Under the pieces are notes generated by a model, which was not told the origin of the DNA, searched no databases, and saw only the letters and a list, made by a program, of their open reading frames with translations. Below, piece after piece: positions 2,191 to 21,245 of a stretch of DNA of 36,984 bases. The position numbers and the translations under genes were made by a program. The DNA is from Actinomycetes bacterium. GTDB lineage: Bacteria; Actinomycetota; Thermoleophilia; BMS3ABIN01. The stretch is taken from assembly GCA_021803005.1 (NCBI GenBank), contig JAJZQT010000011.1, positions 1-36,984 on the forward strand, given 5' to 3'. Every line of letters begins with the position of its first letter. The stretch's first letter is position 1.

Positions 2191-2193
2191 CAA

Positions 2194-6673: not shown

Positions 6674-6680
6674 TGTTGAG

Positions 6681-7367: not shown

Positions 7368-7404
7368 TTAGAGGCTCCTTATCTGGACCTTACTTCTTAC
7401 AAAT

Positions 7405-7420: not shown

Positions 7421-7451
7421 CGGCAAATAGTGGACTTATAATTTTTTAATT

Positions 7452-8246
7452 TTACTGACGCCAACCCTGAATCATCAGTATGTTGGTAGGATCGAGATAG
7501 TTTTGAGCAAGTTGCCGGTCTATATGATTCAGCAATACATCGTTCCAAAACTTCTTTAGTACTTGATAACCTTTGAAAGCTTCCGAATGACACTCGCTAA
7601 AAGGCCTAAGGGAACCACACGGGCAAATCACGGAGTAAGGATTGGTTTTTGAATTGAGATAATGGTCTAGCAAACTAGACTGATGGCATATCTTATAAAG
7701 AACATCTAATTTTTTATAAAAAGTGATGTGCTTTTCAATATTTGCAAATGACTCAAGGAGACCCAAAACACCATGTGAATACTCACCCCAGGGCCAATGA
7801 TCATATTTCTCATGGAAACTTTGACTGTAGAAGTGTGGTACGACAACTTTTGTCATAAATTCCCGAAGGTTGAAGCCGTTCTGTGAGTATATTACTTCTT
7901 CGAAAGATGTCGTCAAACACAGATTTCCATCACCATAACAGTGAAAATCTTGCTTCCTGGGAATGCGCTTTCCTGTTTCATATACCTGAGGCCATATTGA
8001 ATCTCTCGTTTTCTCCAGATTTATTTCAATCTCGTATTTGTCATGTATAAGATTATTTCTCGACTTCGATTTTTTTGAAAACTGATAAAGATCAATCCTT
8101 TTTTTATCAGGAATGTACTCCATGCCAAAAGCAAGTATGCCAGATATTTTGCCAGGATTACCCTCTTTATAGGTCAGGTCAGGAAAGTTTTCCCGAAGCC
8201 ACTCTAGATCATCCTCTTCGATTAAGAACTCACTTGTTTGCGTCAT
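7452..8246 (-). CDS. E2-like (UBC-fold) protein with C-terminal SEC-C-type zinc motif
   Basis: This 264-residue protein resembles bacterial E2 (ubiquitin-conjugating fold) proteins. It has a YEIEI strand (residues 71-75), WPQVYETGKRIP (85-96), then H102-C-Y-G-D-G-N-L-C110-L, in which C110 sits where E2 enzymes carry the catalytic cysteine. WPWGEYSHGVLGL (151-163) resembles the segment after the UBC core in prokaryotic E2 families. Residues 208-220 (CPCGSLRPFSECH) form a SEC-C-like zinc motif. The start overlaps the MBL gene by 17 bases, so expression is coupled. No E1, JAB deubiquitinase or ubiquitin-like gene is adjacent. E2 proteins acting without E1 are known from short type II CBASS, but no CD-NTase is present here. 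The substrate is unknown. Confidence 0.7.
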   Translation of the reverse strand: MTQTSEFLIEEDDLEWLRENFPDLTYKEGNPGKISGILAFGMEYIPDKKRIDLYQFSKKSKSRNNLIHDKYEIEINLEKTRDSIWPQVYETGKRIPRKQDFHCYGDGNLCLTTSFEEVIYSQNGFNLREFMTKVVVPHFYSQSFHEKYDHWPWGEYSHGVLGLLESFANIEKHITFYKKLDVLYKICHQSSLLDHYLNSKTNPYSVICPCGSLRPFSECHSEAFKGYQVLKKFWNDVLLNHIDRQLAQNYLDPTNILMIQGWRQ

Positions 8247-9204
8247 AATACGGTTTTGGTGGTGTAAAGCTCACACTCGCGATCAATTTGCCCTTCTTTC
8301 TTCCACTACGCTTGGTGACATTTTCTGAAAGAGTCCGCTCGAAACCTCCGTCATCGCTTATTTCGTAAATGATATTTCCATCACAGGTAAGAAGGATCTC
8401 GTCAGCATGTTCCTCGTATATGCTCATCGCGTCCTCATGAGGTGGCCAATCCTGATCTTTTCCACCTCGATCTTCGCTTTCATCCATGCTTAGCGCTGAA
8501 ACTATTACAACTGACGGATCAATTGCTTTAATTCCTTCAAGGTATGGTTCGTCATCTTTCTTTTCCATAAAGAAGCTTCTTGACCCATGATGACTTGCAT
8601 GGAGATAATCAGATGTAAGAAGATTATCAAGTGTGGTACCGTCAGCCAGTTCACGCTCTGCGTAATACTTAACAACTTTATTCTTCCAACATTTATGGTT
8701 CGAATCGCCCGCAAAAAGAACAGACGCATCGCCGTACACCATTCTTAGAACCAAGCAATCATAATGAACGTCGTTGTTTTCGTCCTCAGCATATTTTGAT
8801 GAACTAAAACAGTAAAAAGTTGCTCCGCCTACTTCGTAGGGCGTCCTGCTCGCGCGAAGCTTAACTGAGCCAATTTTCTTTACTAAGGATAGGAAGTCAT
8901 CGTAATGCGGCCTGTCATTACCATCTTCAAACCGAAAGCCAGACTCCCATATTTTTCCTATTTTGAACTTTTCAGATAGGTCCTTGATCCCACAAAGATG
9001 ATCTTCATCGGGATGGGTTATAACCAAATAATCCAAAACTTTCTTTTCGTCATCTGTTTTAGTAATGTGCCGGTCAAGATATTCGAGAATATCTTCTTCG
9101 GCTGAATCGGTGTAATTGCAGTCAATAAGCATTGTCTGACCGTCGGGTAATTCGATAAATGTGGTGTCGCCATGACCAACATTAATGTGATGTACTTTTA
9201 ACAT
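8230..9204 (-). CDS. ComEC-like metallo-beta-lactamase-fold hydrolase
   Basis: This 324-residue soluble MBL-fold protein is closest in motif style to the ComEC/Rec2 hydrolase domain. Visible ligands are HINVGHGD (6-13), the H64-P-D66-E-D68-H69 metal motif, AGD167SN and LHASHHGS (201-208). In ComEC the domain is thought to be a nuclease; other MBL proteins cleave nucleotides, RNA or small molecules. There is no membrane channel domain or signal peptide here. AGGAGG sits upstream of the ATG at 9204. The gene overlaps the membrane-protein gene by 23 bases upstream and the E2-like gene by 17 bases downstream, a sign that the three act together. Confidence 0.85.
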   Translation of the reverse strand: MLKVHHINVGHGDTTFIELPDGQTMLIDCNYTDSAEEDILEYLDRHITKTDDEKKVLDYLVITHPDEDHLCGIKDLSEKFKIGKIWESGFRFEDGNDRPHYDDFLSLVKKIGSVKLRASRTPYEVGGATFYCFSSSKYAEDENNDVHYDCLVLRMVYGDASVLFAGDSNHKCWKNKVVKYYAERELADGTTLDNLLTSDYLHASHHGSRSFFMEKKDDEPYLEGIKAIDPSVVIVSALSMDESEDRGGKDQDWPPHEDAMSIYEEHADEILLTCDGNIIYEISDDGGFERTLSENVTKRSGRKKGKLIASVSFTPPKPYYDANK

Positions 9205-9877
9205 CTTTGCCTCCTGATTTTGTTAAATGATAATAGGCGCAATAGATTACTTCCTTCGCGAAATAGTAGCCTCGCTGTCTTGTTCGAAAGAATTCGATGG
9301 TTGCCGAAGCCCAACCCAGAATCATCACGATAGCAATGGCAGACCCGTTTTCATTTAACGACAGCTCATTCAGATAAGCGAGAATCAGAATGATCGTAAG
9401 CAGGGAAGACAACATCCAGGTGCTTGTTAGCAGTGCGCGATGAAAGGCATATGAGGCATTAAACGCTTCGACCCGTCCAATCTTTTCAGAATTAACGACA
9501 GCCATTGCCCTGGAAAAAACCTCTTTGTAATCACCACCTGCTTCTTTAGAGCTTCCAATGTCTAATGCATCTTTTAATTGCTTTACGATCTGACCTCTAT
9601 ATTCACCCAGCATATTACTCTTGCCGGACAGAAGATTGTCCGATGGGATACCGCCCCACAGAAAGTAATATATTGGCTGGACAAAACTTGAAATCGCTTG
9701 AATCACATGGCCAAGGGAATATGCGACAGCTAATCCAATACCAACGCCAAGAATCTCAGCTGTTTTGAACTCGAAATTGATTTTCAAGACATTGAATAAC
9801 CAAATCAGAACCGATAGCACGAGCAGGCCCGGAATTATGTTTGCTAAAAAGTCATAATATGAATATTTGTCGTTCAT
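9182..9877 (-). CDS. Four-helix membrane protein, putative effector of the E2/MBL operon
   Basis: I recognise no named family for this 231-residue protein. Predicted membrane segments lie at about residues 11-30, 41-66, 150-170 and 177-195. A soluble region of about 80 residues between the second and third contains a charged segment. The YDFLANIIPG start, a short cytoplasmic helix leading into the membrane, is reminiscent of membrane proteins in other defence clusters. AAGGGA precedes the ATG. It lies 15 bases after the LexA-like gene and overlaps the MBL gene. A membrane-disrupting effector, or an anchor for the other two proteins, is inference from context. Confidence 0.65.
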   Translation of the reverse strand: MNDKYSYYDFLANIIPGLLVLSVLIWLFNVLKINFEFKTAEILGVGIGLAVAYSLGHVIQAISSFVQPIYYFLWGGIPSDNLLSGKSNMLGEYRGQIVKQLKDALDIGSSKEAGGDYKEVFSRAMAVVNSEKIGRVEAFNASYAFHRALLTSTWMLSSLLTIILILAYLNELSLNENGSAIAIVMILGWASATIEFFRTRQRGYYFAKEVIYCAYYHLTKSGGKDVKSTSH

Positions 9878-9892
9878 TTTTCCCTTGAGTGA

Positions 9893-10510
9893 TTAAGGCG
9901 ATATTTCTTCTTGTTTGATGACAGTTCTTACAACACCCTGAATTATAAAATCTGCTGTCAGAATTATGGGTTTATGGGATGGGTTGCTAGATTTTGGCAC
10001 AAGGGCAATATACTTCGCGCTGGGTCGATAAATCTTGATGGTTGCTTCATCTCCAATCAGAGCCAGGACCGTGTCGCCCGGCGAAGCTTCCGATCTACTT
10101 TCAATCAAAAGTAAATCTCCATCGTCGATGCCAGCTTGATTCATCGAATCACCTTGAGCAGTCAGAAAGAAATATTTCTTCAAATCCCGCACCAGCCGCT
10201 CATCAATAGCAACAAAAGCCTCAATATTTTCTTCAGCTAGAAGTGGAGTACCGCACGCAACGCATCCGATTAGGGGGACGCTGACGGTGCGTTGGGACTC
10301 TTTTTCCATCACCACACCCCGACGTTTATTTTTTTCAAGCTCGATATAGCCTTTTTTTGAAAGTATTGTGAGGTACTGCTGAATTGAATTTACTGATTTA
10401 AACCCTAGCGCGTCAGCGAGCTCCTGCCGTGTAGGCATACGATCGTTTAGCCTAGAGAGCTCTTTGATTGCGTTTAAGACTCGCTGCTGTTTGCCTGTCA
10501 ATGGTTCCAT
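9893..10510 (-). CDS. LexA/S24-type self-cleaving repressor, first gene of the E2/MBL operon
   Basis: This 205-residue protein has the LexA layout: a winged helix at residues 1-65 (MPTRQELADALGFKSVNSIQQYL) and an S24 peptidase domain. The catalytic dyad is S122 (GDSMN) and K159 (ATIKIY). The scissile bond should be C86-G87 (VACGTP), Cys-Gly as in UmuD rather than the Ala-Gly of most LexA proteins. The host LexA is probably elsewhere; this copy sits on the element and opens the operon. A promoter with a -10 about six bases before the ATG and an inverted-repeat operator in its spacer suggests autoregulation and a leaderless message. RecA-stimulated cleavage after DNA damage would induce the downstream genes. 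Confidence 0.85.
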   Translation of the reverse strand: MEPLTGKQQRVLNAIKELSRLNDRMPTRQELADALGFKSVNSIQQYLTILSKKGYIELEKNKRRGVVMEKESQRTVSVPLIGCVACGTPLLAEENIEAFVAIDERLVRDLKKYFFLTAQGDSMNQAGIDDGDLLLIESRSEASPGDTVLALIGDEATIKIYRPSAKYIALVPKSSNPSHKPIILTADFIIQGVVRTVIKQEEISP

Positions 10511-10544
10511 ACATGTATTTTAACATGCGATATGTAAATGTAAA
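10509..10544 (-). promoter_or_regulatory. Operon promoter with operator inside the spacer
   Basis: Read on the minus strand: -35 TTTACA (10544-10539), 16-base spacer, -10 TAAAAT (10522-10517), and the ATG at 10510 near the expected transcription start. The inverted repeat TTTACAT-N5-ATGTTAA (10538-10520) fills the spacer. A perfect 10-bp palindrome ATACATGTAT (10518-10509) runs over the start codon. The half-site ATGTWAA occurs three times. Confidence 0.65.
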
Positions 10545-10600
10545 GTAAAAAATTTTGTACTACATTCAACGTCCATGAATTATAGCCAAGGTTGATTAAT

Positions 10601-13600
10601 CTATATTTGATCTATTTTAGTCATTAACTTCTCCGTCTCGATTAAGACTTTGATTATTTTCTGATAATGATCAATATCTTCGTTGCTTAGCTTTCTGCCC
10701 TTTCGATCTTTAAGCCATTTTTGGGCGGGTTGGTAGCCGCCTATATAGAAATTCCATGCTAATTCAGGCACGTTTCCAAAATATTGTTTGGCATTAATCC
10801 AAATTTTTTGTTCCTCATAACGATTTCTTTCTACTTCATCGCTTCCTGATATTGGATATGAGGTTTCATAATCGTTTAATATCTTAGAATTCATCAGATG
10901 AAGCTCTTTTAACTCATTTCCTAATTTTCCTAGCTTTCTGAACGTAGTATCATCTTTAGGAATTGGAATACGCGGGAAATCGATTTTCAGCAAATCTTGG
11001 TACTTTGAGCGATACTTTGGCGAATACAAGACGGCATAAATATAATCCAGGATTTCCTCTGGGCTATTTTTCGATGTCAGATTTTTAGTAAACTCCTTTA
11101 GCACATCTGGCTTGAAGTTCGGTGTGCGTGTACCATCATCGTGGTAGAGATAGAGAGGGAAAATATAACCCCACTCTTTTGTTTGCAATGATATCGCGCC
11201 GCTTTCAATCATATTTGCTGTGACTAGAGCATGCTGGAACTTAAAAGTGCTTTGTTGACGAACTGTAACTAGCCCAATGTTTTCGTGGTCAATGAAGTGC
11301 CTAAAGGTGGATTCGCGAGGATATGCGATAAACCCCTTTGACTTTCCCGTATACGCAGTTTTGCGTATATCAAATGGGCGGTATAGCACTTTCTCTAGGG
11401 CAAATCCATTTTCCAGATCACTTTTTGCCCAATCTATTCGCCAATCTCGCCCATCAGCTGGCAATGCATATTTTGTCCTGATCTGAGGAGCATCAAGTTC
11501 CTCAAAATCGTTGGTGATCAATGTTAGCTCTTTGTTCGTCAATGGAAAGCAAATCTTGTCTCTTTTTGATTGGATGCCCGAATTCTGGTGGATAAAAAGG
11601 TCATCGACCTTAACTCCAGCTGAGTATTCTTTCTCTTGGCTTTCATTTCTGGGCACAAAAAAGTAGTTTGGCGCAGAACTCGAAATCTTATGCCACTTTA
11701 CTTCCATCCCTAACTTGTCAAACTTATTGTGACGCGTGCCATAAAGCTCTGCAAAAGAAACTTCGCCAAGTCCTTTCTTATTGCTCCTTTTTACAAAGAC
11801 ACTTATCGCGACGCCTTGCTGAATAGCAAAAACATTCTCGTCCTTCGTGCCGTCAGGAGAAACTTCGTTTTTCTTTGTACTGCCATGTAGATCTAAAATG
11901 TATAATTGATCGAACGTTTCGAGCAGATGCTTACGCATTTGGCGGTGGGTTATGCCATCGATGTAGCTGTTGTTTGTTATCATCGCCACAATTCCCGCCC
12001 CATTTTTTAAAATCATTTCTTCAGCAAAGCGAATAAACTTTATGTAGTCATCATCAAGATTGATCTTTCGCTCGTTAAGGGCCTTTTTGTAATCCTTTAA
12101 GAGATCTAGAATGTATTCGCTCTTATTATTACTACTAATGCTGTATGGTGGGTTGCCCATGACCACCATAATTGGACGCTCATGCTTTATCTTGGCGGCC
12201 TCTTCGGCCTCATGACTTACCACATCTGCAAGACCGAAGCTAAAGAGATCTGGCTGGCTCGGATTACCTTCTTCTAAAGTATTTGTGAGATATACACCGA
12301 TACGCTGTTTCGGTTTTGCACCCATTTCTTGAAGAGTCATACCTAGCTTGAGGTGTGCAATGGTATATGGAGCCATCATCAGCTCAAAGCCGTAGATCCT
12401 TGGAAGAAGATCATCCTCAACATAACCTGGCCAGCGGCCTTCTTGACCCTTAAAACCCTGATAAATATGCTTCATGACTTCGTTTAGAAAAGTTGCTGTT
12501 CCTACAGCGGGATCGAGGATCTGAACGCGGTGTAGATCTTTTTTGTAACTTTTGCCCTGACTAGTGAGTGTAACTTTTTTCTTACTGGTATCGGCGAGAC
12601 CTTTGGGCAAACCAAAGTCTCTTTTCAGTATCTCATCCACATTTTTGATGATGAAGCGCACCACAGGCAGGGGCGTATAGTAAGCACCCATTTGCTTGCG
12701 TATCGCAGGGTCATATTCCCTCAGGAAATCCTCATAGAAATGAATGATGGGGTCTTTCTCATCACCAACCTCAAACAACTTTAGATGTTTGTGAACTAGC
12801 ATATTCACATCACTGACGGAAAATACCTCACATAACTCATCCACGATGTATGCTAGTCGCTTATCAAAACGGGGACCGACTATATGGTCGAAGAATTCGC
12901 GTAGGAAAGGATTACTGGCAGGAACGAGGTCACGCGCTTCCTTGCGATCAAAGTTCTCTGGGGTTGTGTCATTATAGCGAGCTACAAAGAGGCCGTAGAC
13001 GAGCGTCTGCGAATACATGTCTGCAAATTTCTCTGTCGTGAGATCATGTACAAGAAGCTCTTTCATCATGTTGTACATTTTCTCTAGCTCTTGGTTCCTC
13101 TCATCATCTTCATGCGCTAGATATAGCTGGACATTATCGCGAATACGCCTGGCTTTAGCCCCCATAATTTCGGCCAAACGTTTGCCACTTTTTATTGACT
13201 CTGGTTGGAGCTCTAAGAACTGTGCTAGCTCGTCAGCCAGCTGTCCATACATCGCGGGGTTTAGATGAAGTGTTCCATGCTTCAGTTCACCAATAGTGAT
13301 GGTTCGATATTTGCTGCCATTTTGAAAAAATCGAAATTCTATGTAGTTGGTAAGAAAGAGATTCTCATATCCACCATAGCGCCGCATCTGGTCGGTCTTC
13401 TCGGTCTTATCAAGAGAAACATCAATATCTTTTGCCTCAGCGTATCCACGGATAATGTCCTTATTGGATCTGTTCAGGAATACGAAGTCGGGATTTCCGT
13501 GAGCCGAACGTTTTGGGTCATTGATTGCCGTGACACCTTTGAAGCTTGACATCAGTCTCTCAAGTGCCGGACGATAGGCATGTTCCTTAGCGTGACCACT

Positions 13601-13663
13601 TTTGTACTGGGTCAGCACTTCGCCAACATACTGTTCAATTATTTTTATGGTTTCACTACTCAT
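10601..13663 (-). CDS. Fused restriction-modification enzyme (nuclease + N6-adenine methylase + specificity domain)
   Basis: This 1020-residue single-chain enzyme should both methylate adenines at a target site and cut unmethylated DNA. The N-terminal PD-(D/E)XK nuclease has D59 and E76-A-K78, with Q92 in the following helix. A helical linker leads to the methylase: GAYYTP (326-331), SAM-binding DPAVGTA (384-390) and catalytic NPPY (504-507). The C-terminal 450 residues should recognise DNA. It resembles proteins annotated as type ISP, but there is no room for the SF2 helicase of the LlaGI class, so a type IIG/IIL mode is more likely. It is separated from the LexA-like gene by 90 bases holding that gene's promoter. 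Confidence 0.85.
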   Translation of the reverse strand: MSSETIKIIEQYVGEVLTQYKSGHAKEHAYRPALERLMSSFKGVTAINDPKRSAHGNPDFVFLNRSNKDIIRGYAEAKDIDVSLDKTEKTDQMRRYGGYENLFLTNYIEFRFFQNGSKYRTITIGELKHGTLHLNPAMYGQLADELAQFLELQPESIKSGKRLAEIMGAKARRIRDNVQLYLAHEDDERNQELEKMYNMMKELLVHDLTTEKFADMYSQTLVYGLFVARYNDTTPENFDRKEARDLVPASNPFLREFFDHIVGPRFDKRLAYIVDELCEVFSVSDVNMLVHKHLKLFEVGDEKDPIIHFYEDFLREYDPAIRKQMGAYYTPLPVVRFIIKNVDEILKRDFGLPKGLADTSKKKVTLTSQGKSYKKDLHRVQILDPAVGTATFLNEVMKHIYQGFKGQEGRWPGYVEDDLLPRIYGFELMMAPYTIAHLKLGMTLQEMGAKPKQRIGVYLTNTLEEGNPSQPDLFSFGLADVVSHEAEEAAKIKHERPIMVVMGNPPYSISSNNKSEYILDLLKDYKKALNERKINLDDDYIKFIRFAEEMILKNGAGIVAMITNNSYIDGITHRQMRKHLLETFDQLYILDLHGSTKKNEVSPDGTKDENVFAIQQGVAISVFVKRSNKKGLGEVSFAELYGTRHNKFDKLGMEVKWHKISSSAPNYFFVPRNESQEKEYSAGVKVDDLFIHQNSGIQSKRDKICFPLTNKELTLITNDFEELDAPQIRTKYALPADGRDWRIDWAKSDLENGFALEKVLYRPFDIRKTAYTGKSKGFIAYPRESTFRHFIDHENIGLVTVRQQSTFKFQHALVTANMIESGAISLQTKEWGYIFPLYLYHDDGTRTPNFKPDVLKEFTKNLTSKNSPEEILDYIYAVLYSPKYRSKYQDLLKIDFPRIPIPKDDTTFRKLGKLGNELKELHLMNSKILNDYETSYPISGSDEVERNRYEEQKIWINAKQYFGNVPELAWNFYIGGYQPAQKWLKDRKGRKLSNEDIDHYQKIIKVLIETEKLMTKIDQI

Positions 13664-13673
13664 AATTTATCCA

Positions 13674-13702
13674 ATTATAATGCTAAAAAATTGATATTTA
13701 AA
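13674..13702 (-). promoter_or_regulatory. Probable promoter of the restriction-modification gene
   Basis: Reading the minus strand, a perfect -10 (TATAAT, 13679-13674) lies 10 bases before the ATG at 13663, with a weak -35 (TTTAAA, 13702-13697) 17 bases upstream. The surrounding DNA is strongly A+T-rich. Confidence 0.5.
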
Positions 13703-13757
13703 CCTTTATTTGTTATACAAAGTGCCTAAACCTCCATATGCCACACTTGAAAAATCT

Positions 13758-13787
13758 TTGACAGAAAAAACTACTTCGTGATAGATT
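13758..13787 (+). promoter_or_regulatory. Probable promoter for the small membrane-protein gene
   Basis: TTGACA (13758-13763), an 18-base spacer and TAGATT (13782-13787) face right. They leave a leader of about 120 bases before the gene at 13915. The leader contains the inverted repeat AAGCGAT...ATCGCTT (13826-13832 and 13849-13855). The 251-base gap 13664-13914 holds nothing else I can identify. Confidence 0.5.
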
Positions 13788-13914
13788 TCCCAGCTGATGA
13801 GCCAATTTGACTATCTTGGTCTTAAAAGCGATTCTGCTTGGCTATCATATCGCTTCTAGCTGAAAAGCTCATCTTCTGGGACATTTCCTGCTCCAATAGT
13901 GAAAGGGTCGTGAA

Positions 13915-14460
13915 ATGCTTTCTTTAACTGGTATTTTTTGGATTTTGATAATCGTGCTCATTGTTGCAACAATCCTCAGACTCACCAAGAATCTCAAAGA
14001 GGAAAACGTAGTGCAACGCTGGGGTGCTTACCTCCCAGGCCAGAATCAAGCGGGCGAGGAATATTTAGCTCTTGCCGAGCAAGAAATTGCAAAGAGAAAC
14101 ACAAGCTTCAGCAAAGAGCGAATCAATTTCGGTATGACGGGTCAGGGTGGGCCTGCTTTAAGAATCGTCTATAGCCCTACTTATTCGAGCTACATCACCT
14201 ATGACATAACTGGTGATGACCTCTTCCTCCATTACGTCCTGTACCGAAGAGGTGATTGGTTCTACAGTATTCCTTTTCTCGGCAAGATCTTATTTCGGCT
14301 ATTTAAGAACGTTTACGTCCATGACCATAACAAGCTGATTGGCTTTGCCTCCGTAACCATCGACTGCGCCAAGGAAGCCGCCGGCAATCTCATGGATAAG
14401 TTCAGTATGGACAAATCGAAGCGAATTAAGGAATCCAGTGGCCTGCTTGGTCCGCTTTAG
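13915..14460 (+). CDS. Unknown protein with one N-terminal membrane helix
   Basis: I do not recognise this 181-residue protein. Residues 4-23 form a single hydrophobic helix followed by a basic stretch (RLTKNLK), consistent with a membrane anchor and a cytoplasmic body of about 155 residues. The body is rich in aromatic residues (YSPTYSSYITYD, WFYSIPFLGKILFRLF). It is the only plus-strand gene between 6.7 and 18.8 kb and has its own probable promoter. It meets the TraD-like gene tail to tail with a four-base overlap. GAAAGGG lies upstream of the ATG. Cargo of the element is the only inference I would make. Confidence 0.6.
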   Translation: MLSLTGIFWILIIVLIVATILRLTKNLKEENVVQRWGAYLPGQNQAGEEYLALAEQEIAKRNTSFSKERINFGMTGQGGPALRIVYSPTYSSYITYDITGDDLFLHYVLYRRGDWFYSIPFLGKILFRLFKNVYVHDHNKLIGFASVTIDCAKEAAGNLMDKFSMDKSKRIKESSGLLGPL

Positions 14461-15848
14461 TCTAGGAAGCTATAGGGCTCGTCCTGCTCAGCAGCAATCG
14501 GATCAGGGAATGTGACAACCTCTGAATCGGGGAAAGTAACTTCTTCGTCCAGTTTGGCTAAGCTGATTGTTCTTCCCGATTCCTTATTAAGGCGTCTAAG
14601 CGTTGCCTGATTCTGTTCCAGTCGCCAGCTTTCTTCCAAATCGAAGGTTCGGAACGTCATCTGATCTTTGCCCTTCGTTTTTAGAATGGCGACCTGAGTT
14701 GGAAGGGCGATTAGTTCGCTTATGCCTTCCTCCCTCTGCTCGTCCTTCGTGAAATAGGTATATGAGTCCTCATTTCTGATCTTCCAGTCATACGGGTCGT
14801 AATCTTTGATGTACTTTACGATCAGTTCAGCGTCCTGCCTGTCGCATCTGTAAATAACAAAGTTCTTTGCGTTGCCGAGAATAATATCCCGTAATTGCTG
14901 GTCGAGCTGAACAAGACTCTGATGAGCAAGGATAAGAGAAAGGCCATATTTTCTGGCTTCGCTCATGATCTCCGCAAAGCTCAACGTTGCGTAGTTCTGA
15001 AACTCGTCCACATACAGATAAAATGGCTTCCTGGCTGACGGCGGTAAATCAACTCTCGACATTGCCGCCATTTGGATTTTGGCCACGAACAGAGCTCCAA
15101 GAAGAAAGCTGTTTGTTCTCAATACTCCCTTAGCCAAATTTATGAGGACCACTTTCTCTTCATCCATAATCTGCCTGAAATCAATCGTTGATTTCTTTGC
15201 TGAGAGCATAAGACGGATTCTTGGATCGCTTGTAAATGAGGAAACTTTATTGAGTGTAGATTCGATGTTCGATATTCGCTCTTTCTCTTCCCACTTCTCA
15301 TATCTGTTGTGCCAGAAGGAATCGACGGCCTCATAAGTTACGTGCTTCATTTTTTCTTTGCGGAATTGCTCGTTTGTGAGGAGCGGTTCAATGTCGAGCA
15401 TCGTTCCGCCCGCTTCGATGAGGGTCAAAACAGCATTTCGCAATATCTCAATCAGCCTGGGCGTCTTGTCATCTGAGAGGTTCCAGATTTTCCTGAAAAC
15501 CTCGATGAGCTCCAAGGTCTGGGTGTATGGGTCGATTCCTTCTTGCTGTTCGAGAGGGTTGAAACCAATTATGTTGTCGGGGTCGGTCATTTCGACCAGG
15601 GTGACGTTTCGAAAGTCGTCAAGATTTCCAACTATGTCATTCACTAAATCGCCGTGAGGATCAATAACCCCACATCCATTGCCGTTCATGATATCGCCGA
15701 GTATCCAGGTCGCCAGACCCTTTGACTTGCCAACACCTGAACTGCCAAGTACATAGACGTGTGTGGATCTGTCCTCTTCGGGCAAATAAAAACCGACGAC
15801 CTCGTCGGCATCGTCATAGGTCATACCAATTTTCAGAGCTGAATCCAT
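14457..15848 (-). CDS. TraD/VirD4-like conjugation coupling ATPase
   Basis: This 463-residue P-loop ATPase of the TraD/TraG/VirD4 (HerA-FtsK) group has Walker A GSSGVGKS at residues 35-42, VIDPHGD at 61-67, and Walker B YLYVDEFQN near residue 290. LILAHQSLVQLD follows, which resembles the sensor region of coupling proteins. Such proteins deliver relaxase-bound DNA to a secretion channel. There is no N-terminal membrane helix pair, so it is the soluble type. It starts 34 bases after the HTH gene ends, in the leftward run that begins with the replication-relaxation gene. No other type IV secretion genes are in the window, so the element may be mobilisable rather than self-transmissible. Confidence 0.8.
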   Translation of the reverse strand: MDSALKIGMTYDDADEVVGFYLPEEDRSTHVYVLGSSGVGKSKGLATWILGDIMNGNGCGVIDPHGDLVNDIVGNLDDFRNVTLVEMTDPDNIIGFNPLEQQEGIDPYTQTLELIEVFRKIWNLSDDKTPRLIEILRNAVLTLIEAGGTMLDIEPLLTNEQFRKEKMKHVTYEAVDSFWHNRYEKWEEKERISNIESTLNKVSSFTSDPRIRLMLSAKKSTIDFRQIMDEEKVVLINLAKGVLRTNSFLLGALFVAKIQMAAMSRVDLPPSARKPFYLYVDEFQNYATLSFAEIMSEARKYGLSLILAHQSLVQLDQQLRDIILGNAKNFVIYRCDRQDAELIVKYIKDYDPYDWKIRNEDSYTYFTKDEQREEGISELIALPTQVAILKTKGKDQMTFRTFDLEESWRLEQNQATLRRLNKESGRTISLAKLDEEVTFPDSEVVTFPDPIAAEQDEPYSFLD

Positions 15849-15882
15849 ATTGAATGATTATATTCCGAGCCTTAATCATTGC

Positions 15883-16206
15883 TCAAGAATAATCAGAACT
15901 CTTCTGCTCAATCCAGTCCATCAAGCTTTTCATCGGAATGCGGATTGAGCATTCACTAAGTCTTATCGCGATCTTGCCCCATTCGCCGTTATAAAGCATC
16001 TGATAGGCGGTCGAGCGGGACATTCCGCACAAAGCTCCTGCTTCAGTAATCTTGAGAAGTAGACGGTCTTTGTACAGATCCGTGCAGGGTGGTTCGTAAA
16101 CAGCGAATTTCTCTGGCTCTGTTTTTAGAACCTTTGCGACCTCACGTAATTTTTGTTGGCATTCTTCAACAAGTTCCAGCGCCTGTTTGCAGTTTTCACA
16201 ACCCAT
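15883..16206 (-). CDS. Excisionase-like helix-turn-helix protein
   Basis: The frame is open from 16281, but AAGGAGG sits five bases before the ATG at 16206, giving 107 residues. Residues 4-30 form a short coiled coil starting with CENCKQ, a possible metal or disulphide pair. Residues 50-100 resemble the excisionase/MerR-type HTH (LLKITEAGALCGMSRSTAYQM, then a wing ending RIPMKSLMDWI). Such proteins direct recombination or regulate element genes. With a serine recombinase in the same element it could be a directionality factor, but serine-integrase directionality factors are too diverse to call from sequence. Confidence 0.65.
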   Translation of the reverse strand: MGCENCKQALELVEECQQKLREVAKVLKTEPEKFAVYEPPCTDLYKDRLLLKITEAGALCGMSRSTAYQMLYNGEWGKIAIRLSECSIRIPMKSLMDWIEQKSSDYS

Positions 16207-16283
16207 CGTTCCTCCTTCAGTTTCGATTATCACTTTGAAAGAATAAAGGCACAGTTTTGAGCTGTGCCTTATTTTGCGCAATT

Positions 16284-16700
16284 TTAGCGCATGATACTTT
16301 GAACCTTTCCTCCCGACGCTATGACAACCGAATCAAGAAGCTGTATGCCCAAAATCTCTGATGATTTCCTGAGCCGTTCGGTCAGATTCATGTCTTCCAT
16401 GCTTGGTTCGGGACTGCCACTCGGGTGGTTGTGAACAGCAATGATGGCCACTGTGCCGTTTATGACGGCTTTTCTCATCACGTCTGCCGGTCTGACTATG
16501 CATGAATTCACACAACCGATTGCGGTCAGCTCTTTCTCGATCACCTGATTCCTGGCGTTGAGGTGGAGAATCCAGAAGCACTCGCGGTCGGCCATTGCTT
16601 CCTCGCTCATGTTTCCCTGAACGAACTTGGCCACGTCATGCGGAGAGCGGATAGGTTCACCCTTGGCGATATCCCTGACCTTCAGAAGTTCAAGATTCAT
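16284..16700 (-). CDS. radC: RadC-family JAB/MPN-domain protein
   Basis: This 138-residue protein carries the JAMM metal motif of the RadC family, H90-N-H92-P-S-G-x-P-x-P-S-x2-D103, with the usual NGTVAIIA strand before it. The N-terminal helix-hairpin-helix region of chromosomal RadC is missing, as in many plasmid and phage versions. I use the ATG at 16700, whose ATGA overlaps the stop of the upstream gene; a GTG at 16712 is also in frame. RadC-like genes are common on mobile elements and their activity is unresolved. It should not be assumed to be a deubiquitinase partner of the E2-like protein 8 kb away. Confidence 0.85.
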   Translation of the reverse strand: MNLELLKVRDIAKGEPIRSPHDVAKFVQGNMSEEAMADRECFWILHLNARNQVIEKELTAIGCVNSCIVRPADVMRKAVINGTVAIIAVHNHPSGSPEPSMEDMNLTERLRKSSEILGIQLLDSVVIASGGKVQSIMR

Positions 16701-17101
16701 GGCGTCCAGCACCCGACCCTCTCGAACCCCTGCTCAAGGATGTATGAAAGCCACTGGTTCAGAAAGACGTTTAAGTCCTTCTTGGCCTTTAGATACACCT
16801 GACTGGGCGCAGGATAGACTTCGCGGTAGCCGAAGCTGTCCTGATAGGTCAGGGCCTCAGCCATTTTCATTTCCGGGTAGATTCTTACTTCCATGTCCGG
16901 GTCGGGAATCATGTCGCCGTTCTGCTTGAAGTAGTGGCTCAGGGCAATGGTGACTGATTCTTCGTCTTCGTGAAGAAGATCAACGTTCAGCTCCATGAAA
17001 CCGCGAGCCCGGAACTGCTGATATTGCGGTATGTCCTCCATGTCCTCCCCCAGAATTTTCTCCAACTTTGCGAAAATCCGTTCGTAGATTGTCAGGGTCA
17101 T
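16697..17101 (-). CDS. Conserved element protein of unknown function (DUF6908-like)
   Basis: This 134-residue soluble protein starts at the ATG at 17101, which follows AAGGAGG. The earlier in-frame ATG at 17131 lacks a site. It has an acidic helical N-terminus (YERIFAKLEKILGEDMEDIPQ) and a conserved-looking core ending MAEALTYQDSFGYREVYP and LNVFLNQWLSYI. The core reminds me of a domain of unknown function annotated next to RadC and replication genes in mobile elements; that match is from memory. It is coupled to radC by an ATGA overlap. Confidence 0.7.
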   Translation of the reverse strand: MTLTIYERIFAKLEKILGEDMEDIPQYQQFRARGFMELNVDLLHEDEESVTIALSHYFKQNGDMIPDPDMEVRIYPEMKMAEALTYQDSFGYREVYPAPSQVYLKAKKDLNVFLNQWLSYILEQGFERVGCWTP

Positions 17102-17190
17102 GACTTCCTCCTTGAATTGGTGTGCGGGCATGCAGAGGCCAGCACAGGTTTTGGGAAACGCATTGGGGGGTGGCGGTACTTTGAGCCTTC

Positions 17191-17333
17191 AGCCCGATTC
17201 AGGGACGCTTACCCGCAGCCTGAACCGGGCCTTCCGAAGCCGGTGAAGAGCAGTACCTACCGAATGTTCAAGGTGCGTGGTAAGTTTTCGAAAAAGAGCC
17301 TTGTCCTTGTGGGATCTAACTCCGAAGGCTCTT
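17191..17333. repeat. Two strong inverted repeats in the gap after the replication-relaxation gene
   Basis: The 243-base gap 17102-17344 holds no gene. GCCCG-A-TTCAGG (17192-17203) pairs with CCTGAA-C-CGGGC (17219-17230) with one mismatch. AAGAGCCTT (17294-17302) pairs exactly with AAGGCTCTT (17325-17333). Neither is followed by a U-tract on the minus strand, so they look like structured leader or processing elements rather than terminators. Confidence 0.5.
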
Positions 17334-17344
17334 GCCCTGGCGGG

Positions 17345-18184
17345 CTATTCCAACAAAGAAGTTGGTGAATCTGTGAAGGGAGAAAGCCAAATGCTTCCGA
17401 GGGGGCTCTTTCTCTGAATCTCTGAGAAGGTCGTAAACAGAAACATCTGCCTCCCCCCTGCTTTCCCTGTTGCCTGGATCAGGTTGGCCAGGCGTCTTTC
17501 ACTTTCGGCGACCGTCAGGACGCGAAAGTGATTAAATCCGTATTCCTCTGTGTACTGACGTGATTTCCAATATCTTTTGTAAGCTGTCACCTTCTCAGCG
17601 AACCGTGACAGCGTTTCCGTTCCCATATCTACTTCCAAGAAGAAGATATGTTTGCCTCTCCCGCTCTGTATTCCAAAGAATGCGTCAGGTGCGACGACGA
17701 AATACTTCTTCTTGGCTCCCGTTACGGAAATCCGGCGCAGTTGCGATTTGTCGCCCCGCTGATAGAAAAAGATCTCTTCCGGTCTTCCAGCAAGCGCGAT
17801 ATCAAGACAAACCTTGAACTCCGAAACCCCGAGCGTGTGATCCATGAACAGCCATTCAACGCGGTTGCTGGCGCGGTTCCATCTAATCTTGTGGCGATCC
17901 ACTTCAAGCGAAGTCGCCACAATGTCAGCTCCACGCTTGTCGAGGGCGTAAACTGCCTGTGCGATGACGGAAGTTGCCGGACGCTCAAGGCGATCCACAA
18001 ATCGGTGCTCGTTGAGTTTCTTGAGGCGCATATTGCATGCCACCAATGAAGCGTTGGGGAAAAAGAGCCGCTGGATCTGGTCGCGCTTCAAAAACCGGTT
18101 CTCGTAAACGCTCAGGATTATGGATACATCCCGAGTAGTAAGAACCATAGGCGATATTCGATTGTTCTCTCTTTTTCTTGTCAT
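17345..18184 (-). CDS. Replication-relaxation family protein
   Basis: This 279-residue protein fits the replication-relaxation (Replic_Relax) group found on plasmids and integrative elements of Gram-positive bacteria. An N-terminal winged helix (residues about 16-75, LTTRDVSIILSVYENRFLKRDQIQRLFF) is followed by a nuclease-like body with AHT-type strands (EWLFMDHTLGVSEFKV) and FFLEVDMGTE. These proteins are thought to act at plasmid origins or in DNA transfer; biochemical proof is thin. It starts only 17 bases from a large inverted-repeat structure. No strong ribosome-binding site precedes the ATG at 18184, so the structure may be part of its leader or its target. It begins the leftward run of element genes after the 51-residue gene. 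Confidence 0.75.
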   Translation of the reverse strand: MTRKRENNRISPMVLTTRDVSIILSVYENRFLKRDQIQRLFFPNASLVACNMRLKKLNEHRFVDRLERPATSVIAQAVYALDKRGADIVATSLEVDRHKIRWNRASNRVEWLFMDHTLGVSEFKVCLDIALAGRPEEIFFYQRGDKSQLRRISVTGAKKKYFVVAPDAFFGIQSGRGKHIFFLEVDMGTETLSRFAEKVTAYKRYWKSRQYTEEYGFNHFRVLTVAESERRLANLIQATGKAGGRQMFLFTTFSEIQRKSPLGSIWLSPFTDSPTSLLE

Positions 18185-18200
18185 TGGTTTTCGTGTTTTT

Positions 18201-18391
18201 CACCAGGGGAAATTAAGCGACCGAAGGAAGCGCCGTCTGGCTGTAAGCCAGACTTCCCGCGCCTCGACGTAGTGAACCCGTAGGGCGAGGGGCGGGAAGT
18301 CGGGCTTCGTTTCGACCTACAAACGAAGACAGACGGCGCAGGATTGAAGTGGGCTAAATGCCCCGCAAATCCTGTTAATTTCCCCCTGGTG
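18201..18391. other. Large nested multi-stem inverted-repeat structure (candidate origin or structured RNA)
   Basis: The outer stem pairs CACCA plus GGGGAAATTAA (18201-18205, 18206-18216) with TTAATTTCCCC plus TGGTG (18375-18385, 18387-18391), 16 pairs with one bulged C. Inside lie GCGCCGTCT/AGACGGCGC (18230-18238, 18331-18339) and CAGGATT/AATCCTG (18339-18345, 18368-18374), capped by GGGC/GCCC (18351-18354, 18360-18363). The first of these encloses GTCTGGC/GCCAGAC (18235-18253), ACTTCCCGC/GCGGGAAGT (18252-18300) and CTTCGTTT/AAACGAAG (18305-18328). Some arms compete. The arms are perfect or nearly so, far beyond chance in 190 bases. Confidence 0.8.
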
Positions 18392-18411
18392 GTTTTAATG
18401 TTTTCAAGATT

Positions 18412-18462
18412 TTGGGTCTTATAATTGGGTCTTACAGCGGTTGTAAGTATCAATGTAAGACC
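18412..18462. repeat. Iteron-like repeats of TTGGGTCTTA / CTTACA
   Basis: TTGGGTCTTA occurs at 18412-18421 and 18425-18434, 13 bases apart. GGTCTTACA (18428-18436) is inverted at 18454-18462 as TGTAAGACC, with another TGTAAG at 18442-18447. GTCTTACA occurs again at 18733-18740 inside the leftward promoter. This spacing suits protein-binding iterons or operator clusters. Confidence 0.55.
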
Positions 18463-18617
18463 TATTGGGTGGGTTTAGGCGCTGTATCTGCCGCTTTCAG
18501 GACTTCTCTTTCTTTGTCGAGCATCTCCTCGGCCGCATCCAAAAAGGCGGTGACCAGCTTATCCAGCTGGCGCTTGACCCTCTCAGGATCGATCTTTTTG
18601 GGATAGACCTCGATCAT
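18462..18617 (-). CDS. Small 51-residue helical protein
   Basis: GGAGAGG lies five bases before the ATG at 18617, the strongest ribosome-binding site of the region, and the frame runs 51 codons to TAG. The product starts MIEVYPKKIDPERVKRQLDK and continues as an amphipathic, acidic helix (LDAAEEMLDKEREVLKAAD), with a short Pro/Thr tail. It lies directly downstream of the leftward promoter and an ATCGTA palindrome, and upstream of the replication-relaxation gene. The stop codon overlaps the iteron-like repeats. I recognise no family. A small DNA-binding or copy-control protein fits the location, but that is only inference. Confidence 0.6.
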   Translation of the reverse strand: MIEVYPKKIDPERVKRQLDKLVTAFLDAAEEMLDKEREVLKAADTAPKPTQ

Positions 18618-18640
18618 TTTTGCCTCTCCAAAGCTCTTAA

Positions 18641-18693
18641 ATCGTATGCTTACGATATAGTGAGGGAAAAAGAAACGGGATTTCTTTCCCGTT
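18641..18693 (-). promoter_or_regulatory. Leader with terminator-like hairpin and operator-like palindrome
   Basis: On the minus strand, AACGGGA and TCCCGTT (18693-18687 and 18680-18674) form a hairpin followed by TTTCTTTTT, resembling a terminator or attenuator within the leader of the 51-residue gene. Next comes the palindrome ATCGTA-N4-TACGAT (18641-18656). Its half-site recurs at 18727-18732 inside the promoter. Confidence 0.5.
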
Positions 18694-18721
18694 AGCTCTC
18701 TGCCCTGCTATATGTATTAAA

Positions 18722-18751
18722 ATAATATCGTAGTCTTACAAGTGCCGTCAA
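18722..18751 (-). promoter_or_regulatory. Leftward promoter of the element's replication/transfer genes
   Basis: Reading the minus strand: -35 TTGACG (18751-18746), 18-base spacer, -10 TATTAT (18727-18722). Its spacer contains GTCTTACA and its edge an ATCGTA half-site, both repeated elsewhere in this intergenic region, so it is probably regulated. It is divergent from the XRE promoter. Confidence 0.65.
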
Positions 18752-18759
18752 TAGGAAAG

Positions 18760-18780
18760 TTTTCCACAGATTGTGTATAA
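18760..18780. other. Inverted pair of DnaA-box matches
   Basis: TTTTCCACA (18760-18768) and, three bases on, TGTGTATAA (18772-18780, complement TTATACACA) both match the DnaA-box consensus TTWTNCACA exactly and face each other. Together with nearby A+T-rich DNA, repeats and the replication-relaxation gene, they mark a candidate replication origin for the excised element. Confidence 0.55.
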
Positions 18781-18788
18781 AAAGGGTC

Positions 18789-18817
18789 TTGCCAGAGTTC
18801 TGTTTCTGTTCTATATT
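18789..18817 (+). promoter_or_regulatory. Promoter of the XRE-ImmA-recombinase operon
   Basis: TTGCCA (18789-18794), a 17-base spacer and TATATT (18812-18817) face right. AAGGA (18833-18837) precedes the ATG at 18846. The divergent leftward promoter begins 38 bases upstream, so one regulator could control both. Confidence 0.7.
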
Positions 18818-18845
18818 AGGAGAAATTAGCGTAAGGAAACGATAA

Positions 18846-19205
18846 ATGGCCAAACATTTTGGCGACAAATTAAGACAATTGAGGCATGAGCGGGGCATCG
18901 GCCAAGAGCAGATACGGGAAGCTCTGGGCTATAAGACAAACAGCTACATCTCCGATGCCGAGCGCGGCAAGTTCATTCCCCAGGGCGACAAGCTCTACAA
19001 ATGGGGCGAAGTCCTCGGACTCTCCCCCGAGCAAATGGACGACCTCCTTTTGGAATACAAGCTTGAGGCATTGGGATTGGATGATCCTGCGTTCACGCTG
19101 ATGTTCAAGGAAGTCCCGAACATGACCCGCGAGGAAAAGCAGTCTTTAATCAGGTCGTTTGAGAACGTCATTCATTCCCGAACGCCCAGAAAGAAACGAT
19201 CATGA
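18846..19205 (+). CDS. XRE-family helix-turn-helix regulator
   Basis: This 119-residue protein has an N-terminal Cro/C1-type HTH (residues about 5-60: KLRQLRHERGIGQEQIREALGYKTNSYISDAERGKFIPQGD), followed by a helical tail (MTREEKQSLIRSFENVI) that probably dimerises. AAGGA precedes the ATG, and the promoter is close to consensus. Its stop overlaps the ImmA-like start by ATGA, the usual repressor/anti-repressor pairing of integrative elements such as ICEBs1. It probably represses the divergent leftward promoter; the repeated GTCTTACA and ATCGTA motifs are candidate sites. The very basic end (RTPRKKRS) is notable. Confidence 0.85.
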   Translation: MAKHFGDKLRQLRHERGIGQEQIREALGYKTNSYISDAERGKFIPQGDKLYKWGEVLGLSPEQMDDLLLEYKLEALGLDDPAFTLMFKEVPNMTREEKQSLIRSFENVIHSRTPRKKRS

Positions 19206-19672
19206 AGCGAGTAATCGACAGAGCCAATCATATATACGAAAACTACGGGACCGATCTTGACAGAATTGCAGACGGTCTTGGTCTTTCGGTGATCTATGAT
19301 GACAAACTAACGGGAAGAATGCGCGAGTACTACTTTCGGGGCTCTATTGTGATTCGTCAGGATTTGCCCGTTCGGGAAAAGCGGGAGCTCGTCGCTCACG
19401 CGGTCGGGCATCATCTCTTTCACGCCGGAAACCATCTCGCTATGCAGAAGCGAATCTACTCCTTCGGCAACTACCATGAGAAGCAGGCTAACGTCTTCGC
19501 CGCCTGCCTGCTCATTCCGCTTTCTTCGCTTATGAGACTGATGGCTGACAAGGCACGCCTTGATGAGATCGCCGAACACTTTCAGGTCCGCGAGGAACTG
19601 GTTCGGCTACGGCTCAAAGTCTGGGCTAATTTTGAAAAAGGGTTAAGCGGCAGCAGCGCCAGGGTGGGTTAA
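19202..19672 (+). CDS. ImmA/IrrE-like protein with degenerate metalloprotease motif
   Basis: This 156-residue protein has the ImmA/IrrE gluzincin layout. The active-site helix reads H66-A-V-G-H70-HLFH where the family has HExxH, so both histidine ligands remain but the catalytic glutamate is alanine. The downstream E93-KQANVFAACLL segment, which normally supplies the third ligand, is present. It could therefore bind metal or a partner without cleaving, or the glutamate role may be met elsewhere. It is translationally coupled to the XRE regulator by an ATGA overlap and ends two bases before the recombinase start. In ICEBs1 the active homologue cleaves its paired XRE repressor. Confidence 0.75.
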   Translation: MKRVIDRANHIYENYGTDLDRIADGLGLSVIYDDKLTGRMREYYFRGSIVIRQDLPVREKRELVAHAVGHHLFHAGNHLAMQKRIYSFGNYHEKQANVFAACLLIPLSSLMRLMADKARLDEIAEHFQVREELVRLRLKVWANFEKGLSGSSARVG

Positions 19673-19674
19673 AA

Positions 19675-21213
19675 ATGAACTGTGTTATTTATCTCCGAGT
19701 ATCAACTAAAGAACAAGCTCAAAAGGCTGATAGCAATGAGGGCTATTCTATTCCTGCCCAAAGAGAAGCGTGCGTAAAATATATCGAGGAAAAAGGCTGG
19801 AAGCTTATTGATGAGTACACTGACCGGGGCGAATCGGCCAGGTCGAAAGACCGACCACAGCTTCAAGAAATGCTCTCAAGAATCAAGAAAGAAAAAGATG
19901 TTCAGGTAGTCGTCGTTCACAAGATCGACCGGCTCGCCCGGAACATGGAAGATCACATCACTATCAAGGCGATTCTAAAACGGGCCGGAACCGTCCTGGA
20001 ATCTGTCATGGAGAATATTGAAGATTCTGCCTCTGGCAACTTGGTTGAGGGTATTCACGCTCTCATGGCTGAATTCTATTCCGCAAATCTCGCAACTGAA
20101 GTAAAAAAAGGGATGGCAGAGAAAGCCAAGCGGGGCGGTTGGCCGTTTAAGGCCCCCGTTGGCTATAAAAATGAAAGAAAGGGTTTCAGAAAAAACAGCA
20201 TTTCCAAAATCGTAGTAGATCCTGAAACTGCTCCTCATATCAAAGAAGCTTTCCAATTATACGGGACAGGTAATTATTCAACTCACGATATTCGAGAATT
20301 CCTGGTTCAAAGGGGCGTTACTAATCGGAGAGGCGGTAATAATCCGATGGCTCTTTCCAGCGTCAATGCTCTTCTCTTGAACCCTATTTATATTGGTCTT
20401 ATCCCGTGGAAAGGTGTTAATTACCCGGGAAACCACGAGGCGCTGATTGACGAAGATACTTTCGAAAAGGTTCAGGAAGTGATGAACGTTCACAATGTTG
20501 CCGGTGAACGCACACGCAAACATCCCCACTACCTTAAAGGCACGCTTTATTGTGGGGAATGTGGTTCAAGAATGTCTGTCGATGTCGCCAAGAAAAAATA
20601 TGTCTATTTCTACTGCGTAGGCCAGAAAAAGAAGTTCACAAAATGCAAAGAGCTATATGTGAACACAGTGGATATTGAAAAAGAGATTGAGCAGATGTAT
20701 GAGAATATCCAGCTGACCCAGGATCAAATTGAAAAGATAAAAAAAGACTTCAATGAGAAGCTGATTGGCCGTCAGTCAAACAACGCTATGGAAGAACAAT
20801 TCCTTGGCAAGAGAATCACCAAACTGGCTGATGAAAAGCTGAAACTGATGAAAGCGTATTATGCTGGAGCAATCGAGCTGGACGTTCTCAAAGCAGAGCA
20901 AGACAGGATTTCGGCTGAAATGAAGTCCTCAGAGAAACGGCTAAAAACGATAAGGGGCGGTCTGGATCAATACAGAGTGATTCTAGATAAGGCGGCGCAC
21001 CTGGCTTCCAACTGTTCCGAGGCTTACAAACAATGCAAACCTAAAACAAAAAGGCTCTTTAACCAAGCCTTCTTTGAGAAGCTCTACGTGAAGGATCGTA
21101 AGATTTATAAGGTTGAATATACCGACTTATTCGGTGCTCTCTTCGACGAAAGTTCGAATAAGGATGATTTGGTGGGCGATGGCGGGCTCGAACCACCGAC
21201 CCCCTGCTTGTAA
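19675..21213 (+). CDS. Large serine recombinase (integrase) of the element
   Basis: This 512-residue integrase cuts and joins DNA through S10 (YLRVSTKEQ) in an N-terminal resolvase domain (residues 1-150, with DRLARN). It is followed by the recombinase domain (APVGYKN, then the NPIYIG segment), a zinc ribbon with four cysteines (LYCGECG...FYC...C) and a coiled coil. AGGGTGGG precedes the ATG. The last 15 or so codons (GDGGLEPPTPCL at the end) are encoded by the complementary strand of the tRNA-Val gene, and the TAA lies across its anticodon loop. Integration therefore supplies the protein's C-terminus. The element should insert at the 3' end of tRNA-Val. Confidence 0.9.
   Translation: MNCVIYLRVSTKEQAQKADSNEGYSIPAQREACVKYIEEKGWKLIDEYTDRGESARSKDRPQLQEMLSRIKKEKDVQVVVVHKIDRLARNMEDHITIKAILKRAGTVLESVMENIEDSASGNLVEGIHALMAEFYSANLATEVKKGMAEKAKRGGWPFKAPVGYKNERKGFRKNSISKIVVDPETAPHIKEAFQLYGTGNYSTHDIREFLVQRGVTNRRGGNNPMALSSVNALLLNPIYIGLIPWKGVNYPGNHEALIDEDTFEKVQEVMNVHNVAGERTRKHPHYLKGTLYCGECGSRMSVDVAKKKYVYFYCVGQKKKFTKCKELYVNTVDIEKEIEQMYENIQLTQDQIEKIKKDFNEKLIGRQSNNAMEEQFLGKRITKLADEKLKLMKAYYAGAIELDVLKAEQDRISAEMKSSEKRLKTIRGGLDQYRVILDKAAHLASNCSEAYKQCKPKTKRLFNQAFFEKLYVKDRKIYKVEYTDLFGALFDESSNKDDLVGDGGLEPPTPCL
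21170..21213. other. Right attachment site: 3' part of tRNA-Val shared with the recombinase frame
   Basis: The recombinase frame runs into the tRNA-Val 3' end and stops at 21213. Composition changes sharply here, from about half G+C to well above 60 percent. The exact crossover cannot be placed because no second copy of the tRNA end is visible in the window. Confidence 0.55.
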
Positions 21214-21245
21214 GGCAGGTGCTCTCCCAGCTGAGCTAATCGCCC
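21170..21245 (-). tRNA. tRNA-Val (anticodon TAC)
   Basis: The minus strand folds as a cloverleaf. The acceptor stem GGGCGAT pairs with ATCGCCC, the anticodon stem CCTGC/GCAGG encloses loop CTTACAA, and the T arm has GGTTCGAGCC. Discriminator A and encoded CCA occupy 21173-21170. The gene is complete despite the adjoining integrated element. Confidence 0.95.

Follow-up and report, generated by a model that had tools for sequence, protein, structure and literature searches.

The attachment site attP of a bacterial large serine recombinase (LSR) appears to lie within the recombinase gene itself, about 24 codons before its natural stop, such that integration would exchange the native C-terminal tail of the enzyme for a read-through of the target tRNA gene, and the tail-bearing form would act as a state switch. 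We assign this reading, which is drawn from sequence comparisons, a probability of roughly 70 %, and we infer that circles are formed and that the tail is important. The window, i.e. the whole stretch of DNA analysed here, is 36,984 nucleotides long, and the features discussed are collected in Table 1.

The recombinase gene and its run into tRNA-Val(TAC)

A tRNA-Val(TAC) gene was called by ARAGORN on the minus strand (21170-21245, with its CCA end at 21170). The LSR open reading frame (ORF; 19675-21213, plus strand, 512 aa) crosses this CCA end in frame and antisense, and is ended by the TAA at 21211-21213, which overlaps the antisense anticodon GTA at 21210-21212. The initial annotation of this DNA had proposed that the integrase frame crosses the boundary between element and chromosome and stops across the tRNA anticodon, and both observations hold. 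By every sequence test the encoded protein is a large serine recombinase: the Pfam families Resolvase, Recombinase and recombinase zinc beta ribbon were matched over cut-off, and homology to A118 integrase was found, with an alignment reaching residue 476. As seen from the Pfam matches, the catalytic domain is N-terminal and unbroken in the integrated form. The structure model, built with 27 relatives, includes a coiled-coil insertion (helices 349-396 and 402-445), with domain placement at low confidence (pTM 0.35); residues 493-512, including the tRNA-derived end, have pLDDT below 50, and this end is modelled as disordered. The genes for an HTH regulator and an ImmA/IrrE-type peptidase stop 3 bp ahead of the LSR start and are likely to form an induction switch for the recombinase.

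Table 1. Features of the window and the basis on which each was assigned
Feature	Position	Strand	Basis
Chromosomal left flank = downstream flank of tRNA-Ala(TGC) in relative	1..120	.	98 % identical to G013:C19
LSR-less cassette with arsenic genes: arsR-, arsC-, ArsA-like, two Acr3/SBF-type permeases	121..6593	+	Left-end motif, hairpin-type right end; Pfam
Core TGGTGG, outer left end	121..126	+	Left-end comparison
Remaining attP right half, coding conserved tail DLTGSYSNLIVLNQLEKVVNRLTA, stop 198-200	127..200	+	Left-end comparison, frame test
Cassette right end: hairpin, GAGGGG motif, in-frame start codon position at 6593	6560..6593	+	Right-end comparison
LSR element, 14.6 kb, mobilizable-element-like, restriction-modification and other genes	6594..21169	+	Left end 6594, LSR at right end; Pfam, PADLOC
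Core TGGTGG, left end of LSR element	6594..6599	+	Left-end comparison
Remaining attP right half, coding native tail GVIGTYSNLYMLNQLEKAVMAAVA, stop 6671-6673	6600..6673	+	Left-end comparison, frame test
HTH regulator and IrrE/ImmA-type peptidase, directly 5' of LSR gene	18846..19672	+	Pfam HTH_31, Peptidase_M78; capH/capP-like (PADLOC)
LSR ORF, integrated-state reading, 512 aa	19675..21213	+	ORF, Pfam, A118 homology, structure model
attP left half within LSR 3' end, GTTCGAATAAG motif	21151..21169	+	Conserved at LSR right ends
attR core TGGTGG = antisense of tRNA CCA end	21170..21175	+	Sequence comparison
attB half: antisense tRNA translated as GDGGLEPPTPCL plus stop	21176..21213	+	ORF reading
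tRNA-Val(TAC), target gene, intact	21170..21245	-	ARAGORN

We gathered relatives of the LSR from public genomes as well as whole genomes surrounding the host and examined the sequence at their 3' ends. At 47 of 50 distinct junctions between an LSR and a tRNA or tmRNA gene (relatives 26-100 % identical) the frame is the same and no stop precedes the CCA end, although these counts, like those of the left ends below, share ancestry and are hence not independent. The 47 open junctions fall into 21 clusters at 70 % identity, and the length from the body of the protein to the CCA end varies from 494 to 567 codons in their full-length members. The targets include tRNAs for Val, Lys, Met, Glu, Pro, Ala, Arg, Leu and Ile as well as tmRNA. 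Amongst the three exceptions, one (L115) is frameshifted or degenerate and two (L020 and L125) lie at tRNAs without an encoded CCA; even so, the frame of L125 relative to the T-loop is the same as at the open junctions. The read-through into the tRNA is set by the tRNA and its flank and ranges from 12 to more than 60 residues. Its LV residues derive from the antisense CCA end and the G-(F/L/I)-E-P residues from the T-loop; the resemblance among LSR ends is therefore trivial, because the CCA end and the T-loop translate alike once the frame is fixed. The non-trivial part is the fixed frame across the junctions, and judging from these alignments the sharing of this frame is more than chance.

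A few sites depart from this arrangement. The LSR frame of L105 (G008:C33) leaves the core into DNA with neither a tRNA nor a T-loop motif, possibly as an off-target insertion. Non-tRNA sites of the form TGGTG(G/A)ACC-N-CGGGTTCGAACC, with tRNA-like spacing, occur at L093 (G002:C8, about 18243), L097 (G001:C6) and L049 (G005:C93), where they adjoin LSR or cassette ends on the right, and may represent landing sites carried by elements.

Left ends, attachment sites and the conserved tail

The left end was located by comparison with an element of another genome (G002:C8), whose LSR is 97 % identical and which occupies a different, non-tRNA site. The two share 96.6 % identity over 13778-21194 of the window and, separately, a 70-bp match at window 121-190; TGGTGGACCTTACCGGTAGCTATTCGAACC opens the left ends of both (at 121 in the window), and the DNA before each is unrelated. 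A second left end is found within the window at 6594. The initial annotation had placed a second copy of the tRNA end beyond the left edge of the window and had considered the case that no attL copy exists in the genome. Left ends do exist, and they lie inside the window, at 121 and 6594. The only sequence common to these two and the tRNA end is TGGTGG, and it follows that crossover occurs at the CCA end, that the body of the tRNA is the chromosomal attB, that integration requires no extended tRNA duplication, and that the half-sites of the element are the 3' end of the LSR gene and the left end. As the core is kept merely as GG or TGG in some left ends, the crossover can be placed at about the GG.

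A long copy of the tRNA end is absent from the window by short BLAST. The sole find of this kind elsewhere was one 51-bp copy (G002:C13), which had first suggested that the LSR tail is unchanged in the circle; both the long duplication at attL and the unchanged tail were rejected when the left-end comparison gave a 6-bp core. This copy in G002:C13 (29613-36313, L092) is an exact copy of the 3' half of tRNA-Val, situated at the right end of an LSR; the intact tRNA is 6.6 kb away. A second element probably lies between the two, perhaps one of a different integrase.

In the left ends a T-loop-like motif begins at base 24, against base 19 in the tRNA, and this outward shift of 5 bp was found in the Val, tmRNA and tRNA-Pro types alike. 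A motif shift of the same kind has been described between attP and attB of the LI integrase (PMC3783163). The TTCGAAC motif is nearly invariant in left ends and is placed where the attP motifs of LSRs lie, while the left-end sequence tracks the target, TGGTGGAGGCGG being common to the tmRNA-type left end and the tmRNA end. A pattern scan detected 68 left ends in 15 of the 19 host-family genomes and none in a reversed control. Occupied and unoccupied sites could also be compared: at an empty tRNA-Pro(TGG) site (G001:C18) 7 bp separate the Gly tRNA from the Pro tRNA, and at the filled site (G015:C61) the tRNA changes to a left end at TGGTCG, exactly where empty and filled sequences diverge. Similarly, the downstream flank of tmRNA in G001:C31 is found 42 kb off in G004:C7, past an island with an LSR at tmRNA.

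When position 21175 is joined in silico to 6600, the LSR frame continues as ...SSNKDDLV-GVIGTYSNLYMLNQLEKAVMAAVA and then stops; joined to 127, it continues as ...SSNKDDLV-DLTGSYSNLIVLNQLEKVVNRLTA and stops likewise, giving 524 aa in both cases. The protein would thus end in a 24-residue tail in the joined circle, as against 12 tRNA-derived residues in the integrated form of 512 aa, which supports the earlier proposal that the C-terminus of the circular form is set by the other end of the element. The accompanying idea that integration completes the gene is not supported: the conserved C-terminus sits at the left end and is removed by integration, and the tRNA adds a variable read-through. In seven LSR elements for which both ends are available, among them tmRNA, Glu and divergent Pro types, the frame likewise continues into a tail of this kind. 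These joints include ...LVDLTGSYSNLLILVQLEKAVNRLLVA followed by a stop in the G002:C8 element, ...VEAVQRYSNSEVNILSRLERVMKQVSA followed by a stop in the tmRNA element of G004:C7, an in-frame tail in the tRNA-Glu element of G018:C40, and tails of the VELFGRYLNSN... and VGLFGRYLNSS... types in three tRNA-Pro elements (5.9, 6.0 and 11.5 kb).

Within the host family the tail peptide, which has the pattern YSN-xxxLxxLExxV, is encoded at about 70 left ends. A stop within codons 10-20 was seen in 4 of 69 left ends in the tail frame versus 59 and 55 in the other two frames, and in-frame pN/pS is 0.46-0.63 within left-end subgroups; the tail is therefore a protein sequence under constraint. Beyond the TTCGAAC motif the third codon positions are free to vary while second positions and frame are kept. 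The tails end at 20-33 aa in 59 of the 69 left ends, and 25 of 59 unique tails have a terminal Ala. An LSR fused to its native tail was not found in the host-family genomes or viral contigs searched. No matching left end stood out in Nocardia and other distant hosts, where control counts were lower though not zero, nor was a left-end match found upstream of an LSR of distant relatives within the stretches searched; the tail is therefore established in the host family only. Plasmid and phage collections contained only LSR relatives below 60 % identity. In Nocardia asiatica (L011; G099:C226, 85434-85462) a 29-bp repeat of the 3' end of tRNA-Arg lies 67.8 kb from the junction of LSR and tRNA-Arg; it is unlike the 6-bp core of the host family, and joining there would alter the end of the LSR too.

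Cassette arrays, proposed mechanism and known systems

The same left ends also open LSR-less units of 0.8-6.5 kb, often in tandem, which end at tRNA-Ala, Val, Met or tmRNA. The right ends of these cassettes consist of a hairpin, a Shine-Dalgarno-like GAGGG motif and an NTG codon placed exactly at the core, and a C directly ahead of the core is rare (2 of 69 left ends). Several cassettes contain toxin-antitoxin genes, and the cargo families identified among those tested are HicA, HicB-like, HigB, ParE, RelE and AbiEii. None of the LSR right ends is next to a left end, and 27 of them have a tRNA or tmRNA as neighbour; right ends of the hairpin type, by contrast, are followed by a left end in 36 cases and by a tRNA in at most 31, the hairpin test being loose at tRNAs (Fisher p=1.6e-7).

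In the circular form, the LSR gene would be complete, with 500 codons followed by the conserved tail, and the predicted circle junction would join the LSR 3' end ...GATGATTTGGTGG to GCGTAATCGGC (from 6600) or to ACCTTACCGGT (from 127). By recombining at the CCA end of tRNA or tmRNA genes (core TGGTNG), the element would leave its tail codons stranded at its opposite, left extremity, and the integrated LSR frame would then read the antisense strand of the tRNA up to a chance stop, which in the window falls in the anticodon. The in-frame tRNA tail would accordingly be a by-product, since only an ORF without a stop in the core can be read on into its native tail. The most likely role of this arrangement would be a state switch on the recombinase, in which the tail-bearing form, made from the circle only, would perform or favour integration and would be lost upon success; the LSR C-terminus may in this sense be a sensor of integration state. 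LSR-less cassettes with matching ends would probably be moved in trans, and the ribosome site and start codon at their right ends could yield the tail peptide by itself, as a microprotein, where circles or cassettes are joined. On one reading, insertion of a cassette behind an LSR would give the enzyme a tail once more, and with it activity and renewed movement. As LSR-less cassettes retain the peptide too, it may be under selection by a route other than the LSR.

The LSR appears to serve integron-like arrays. The likeness to integrons lies in arrangement only, small cassettes standing in tandem at one fixed site, with toxin-antitoxin genes in several of them. Integrons use IntI, a tyrosine integrase acting on folded attC sites, whereas by sequence the arrays reported here have double-strand att halves of LSR type with a coding tail, and end at tRNA or tmRNA genes. 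As a tentative extension, which we hold with well under even confidence, the system could be a serine-recombinase counterpart of integrons, in which tandem cassettes would be moved by LSRs at the 3' ends of tRNA and tmRNA genes. Each free circle, with or without an LSR, would then rebuild the conserved peptide, either fused to the LSR or standing alone as a microprotein, and this peptide would license integration and be dismantled by it. The SCC elements of staphylococci are likewise inserted by serine recombinases, tandem insertions included, but their target is the 3' end of a single protein gene, and no split recombinase tail is known in them.

Self-disrupting (suicidal) integrases have been described as restricted to archaea, all being tyrosine enzymes (PMC8371274). 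The archaeal examples SSV1, pTN3 and pT26-2 are alike in having attP in the integrase gene, with integration at a tRNA splitting off C-terminal codons to the other end of the element. However, they are tyrosine recombinases that lose their catalytic domain (PMC8371274), whereas the LSR of the window is a bacterial serine enzyme which keeps its catalytic and DNA-binding domains and loses a short C-terminal tail; it resembles a mild suicidal integrase without being one. Large serine integrases of the A118/LI, phiC31 and Bxb1 type are similar in domain order, A118 homology and the 5-bp motif shift between attP and attB, but differ in that here the ORF is open through attP into a conserved tail and the targets are tRNA and tmRNA genes. 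tRNA genes are reported to be rare targets of serine recombinases (PMC3218068). The filamentous phage phiRSM also combines a serine recombinase with a short core at an antisense tRNA 3' end, but its enzyme is small and resolvase-like and its attP lies between two genes (PMC3816273). In the integration-dependent immunity of mycobacteriophage BPs, attP lies in a regulatory gene and integration changes the C-terminus of the protein (PMC4557955), although there a repressor is shortened by 33 residues (PMC4557955) and here a recombinase exchanges its tail. We found no earlier report of serine recombinase cassette arrays, or of attP inside a serine recombinase gene, in the open-access literature searched.

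A tail exchange by a bacterial serine recombinase would constitute a built-in and directly testable link between the state of the DNA and the form of the enzyme, and would bear on what sets the direction of recombination by serine integrases. The cassette arrays point to a second, unrelated class of enzymes behind gene capture of the integron kind, directed at the universal ends of tRNA and tmRNA genes, and the many tRNA-specific LSR variants represent a natural set of att-site specificities.

Alternative explanations and organization of the window

The tail could instead be a degradation tag, so that the LSR encoded by the circle would be short-lived and integration would strip the tag and stabilise the enzyme, by analogy with mycobacteriophage BPs, whose attP is situated within the gene for its repressor (PMC4557955). 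The frequent terminal Ala, in endings such as LVA, VSA and LTA, would agree with this, but many tails are without it, the whole YSN-xxxLxxLExxV segment is conserved and not its end alone, and tails are also retained on LSR-less cassettes; we consider a tag to be rather unlikely. These common LSR-less cassettes, with GAGGG and NTG placed exactly at the core and C seldom preceding it, are what one would expect if the peptide were an independent microprotein or leader made from the ribosome site of the cassette right end, its fusion to the LSR in the circle being incidental. An incidental overlap, however, needs no open frame, and at nearly all LSR junctions the frame stays open through the core despite changes in length, which makes this explanation unlikely. 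Two further proposals have very little to commend them. The conserved frame into the tRNA is compatible with the original view that the tRNA-derived tail is a functional C-terminus gained when integration completes the gene, yet this tail differs in length and sequence with the tRNA and its flank, is modelled as disordered, and has a conserved alternative encoded at the left end. Similarly, conservation of left ends at the DNA level only, through recombinase binding and with no coding role, would account for a near-invariant TTCGAAC at the position of LSR attP motifs, but is disfavoured by the frame and pN/pS tests, given that third codon positions vary while second positions and frame are kept. 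The reading of an attP within the LSR gene, with a tail lost on integration, is preferred.

A separate question, and one on which we lean only slightly against the alternative, is whether the contig of the window is chimeric or rearranged, so that its two extremities would not delimit a single integrated island, while the family-wide system would still be real. The left flank, which abuts an empty tRNA-Ala(TGC) in G013:C19, matches the tRNA-Ala(TGC) locus and the right flank the tRNA-Val locus, both of G013; therefore the contig joins two loci, by rearrangement or misassembly. The right part also matches G013:C21, which has a different LSR at this tRNA, up to the same contig end. On the other hand, recombination at att sites would produce the same picture, and the joining of two loci leaves the LSR element untouched, both its ends (6594 and 21169) being inside the window. 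The stretch 21170-36984 is ~100 % identical to G013:C21, from another genus of the family, up to that shared end; the contig may have been binned in the wrong genome, or one population may be present in two samples with different LSR elements at one tRNA.

By gene content, the LSR element (6594-21169) carries putative Replic_Relax (PF13814) and TraG/TrwB-like ATPase genes in addition to the integrase, as assigned by Pfam. Three neighbouring minus-strand genes at 7452-9877 gave PADLOC matches to E2-like, metallo-beta-lactamase-fold and membrane proteins and constitute a possible defence operon, beside which a type IIG restriction enzyme is encoded at 10601-13663.
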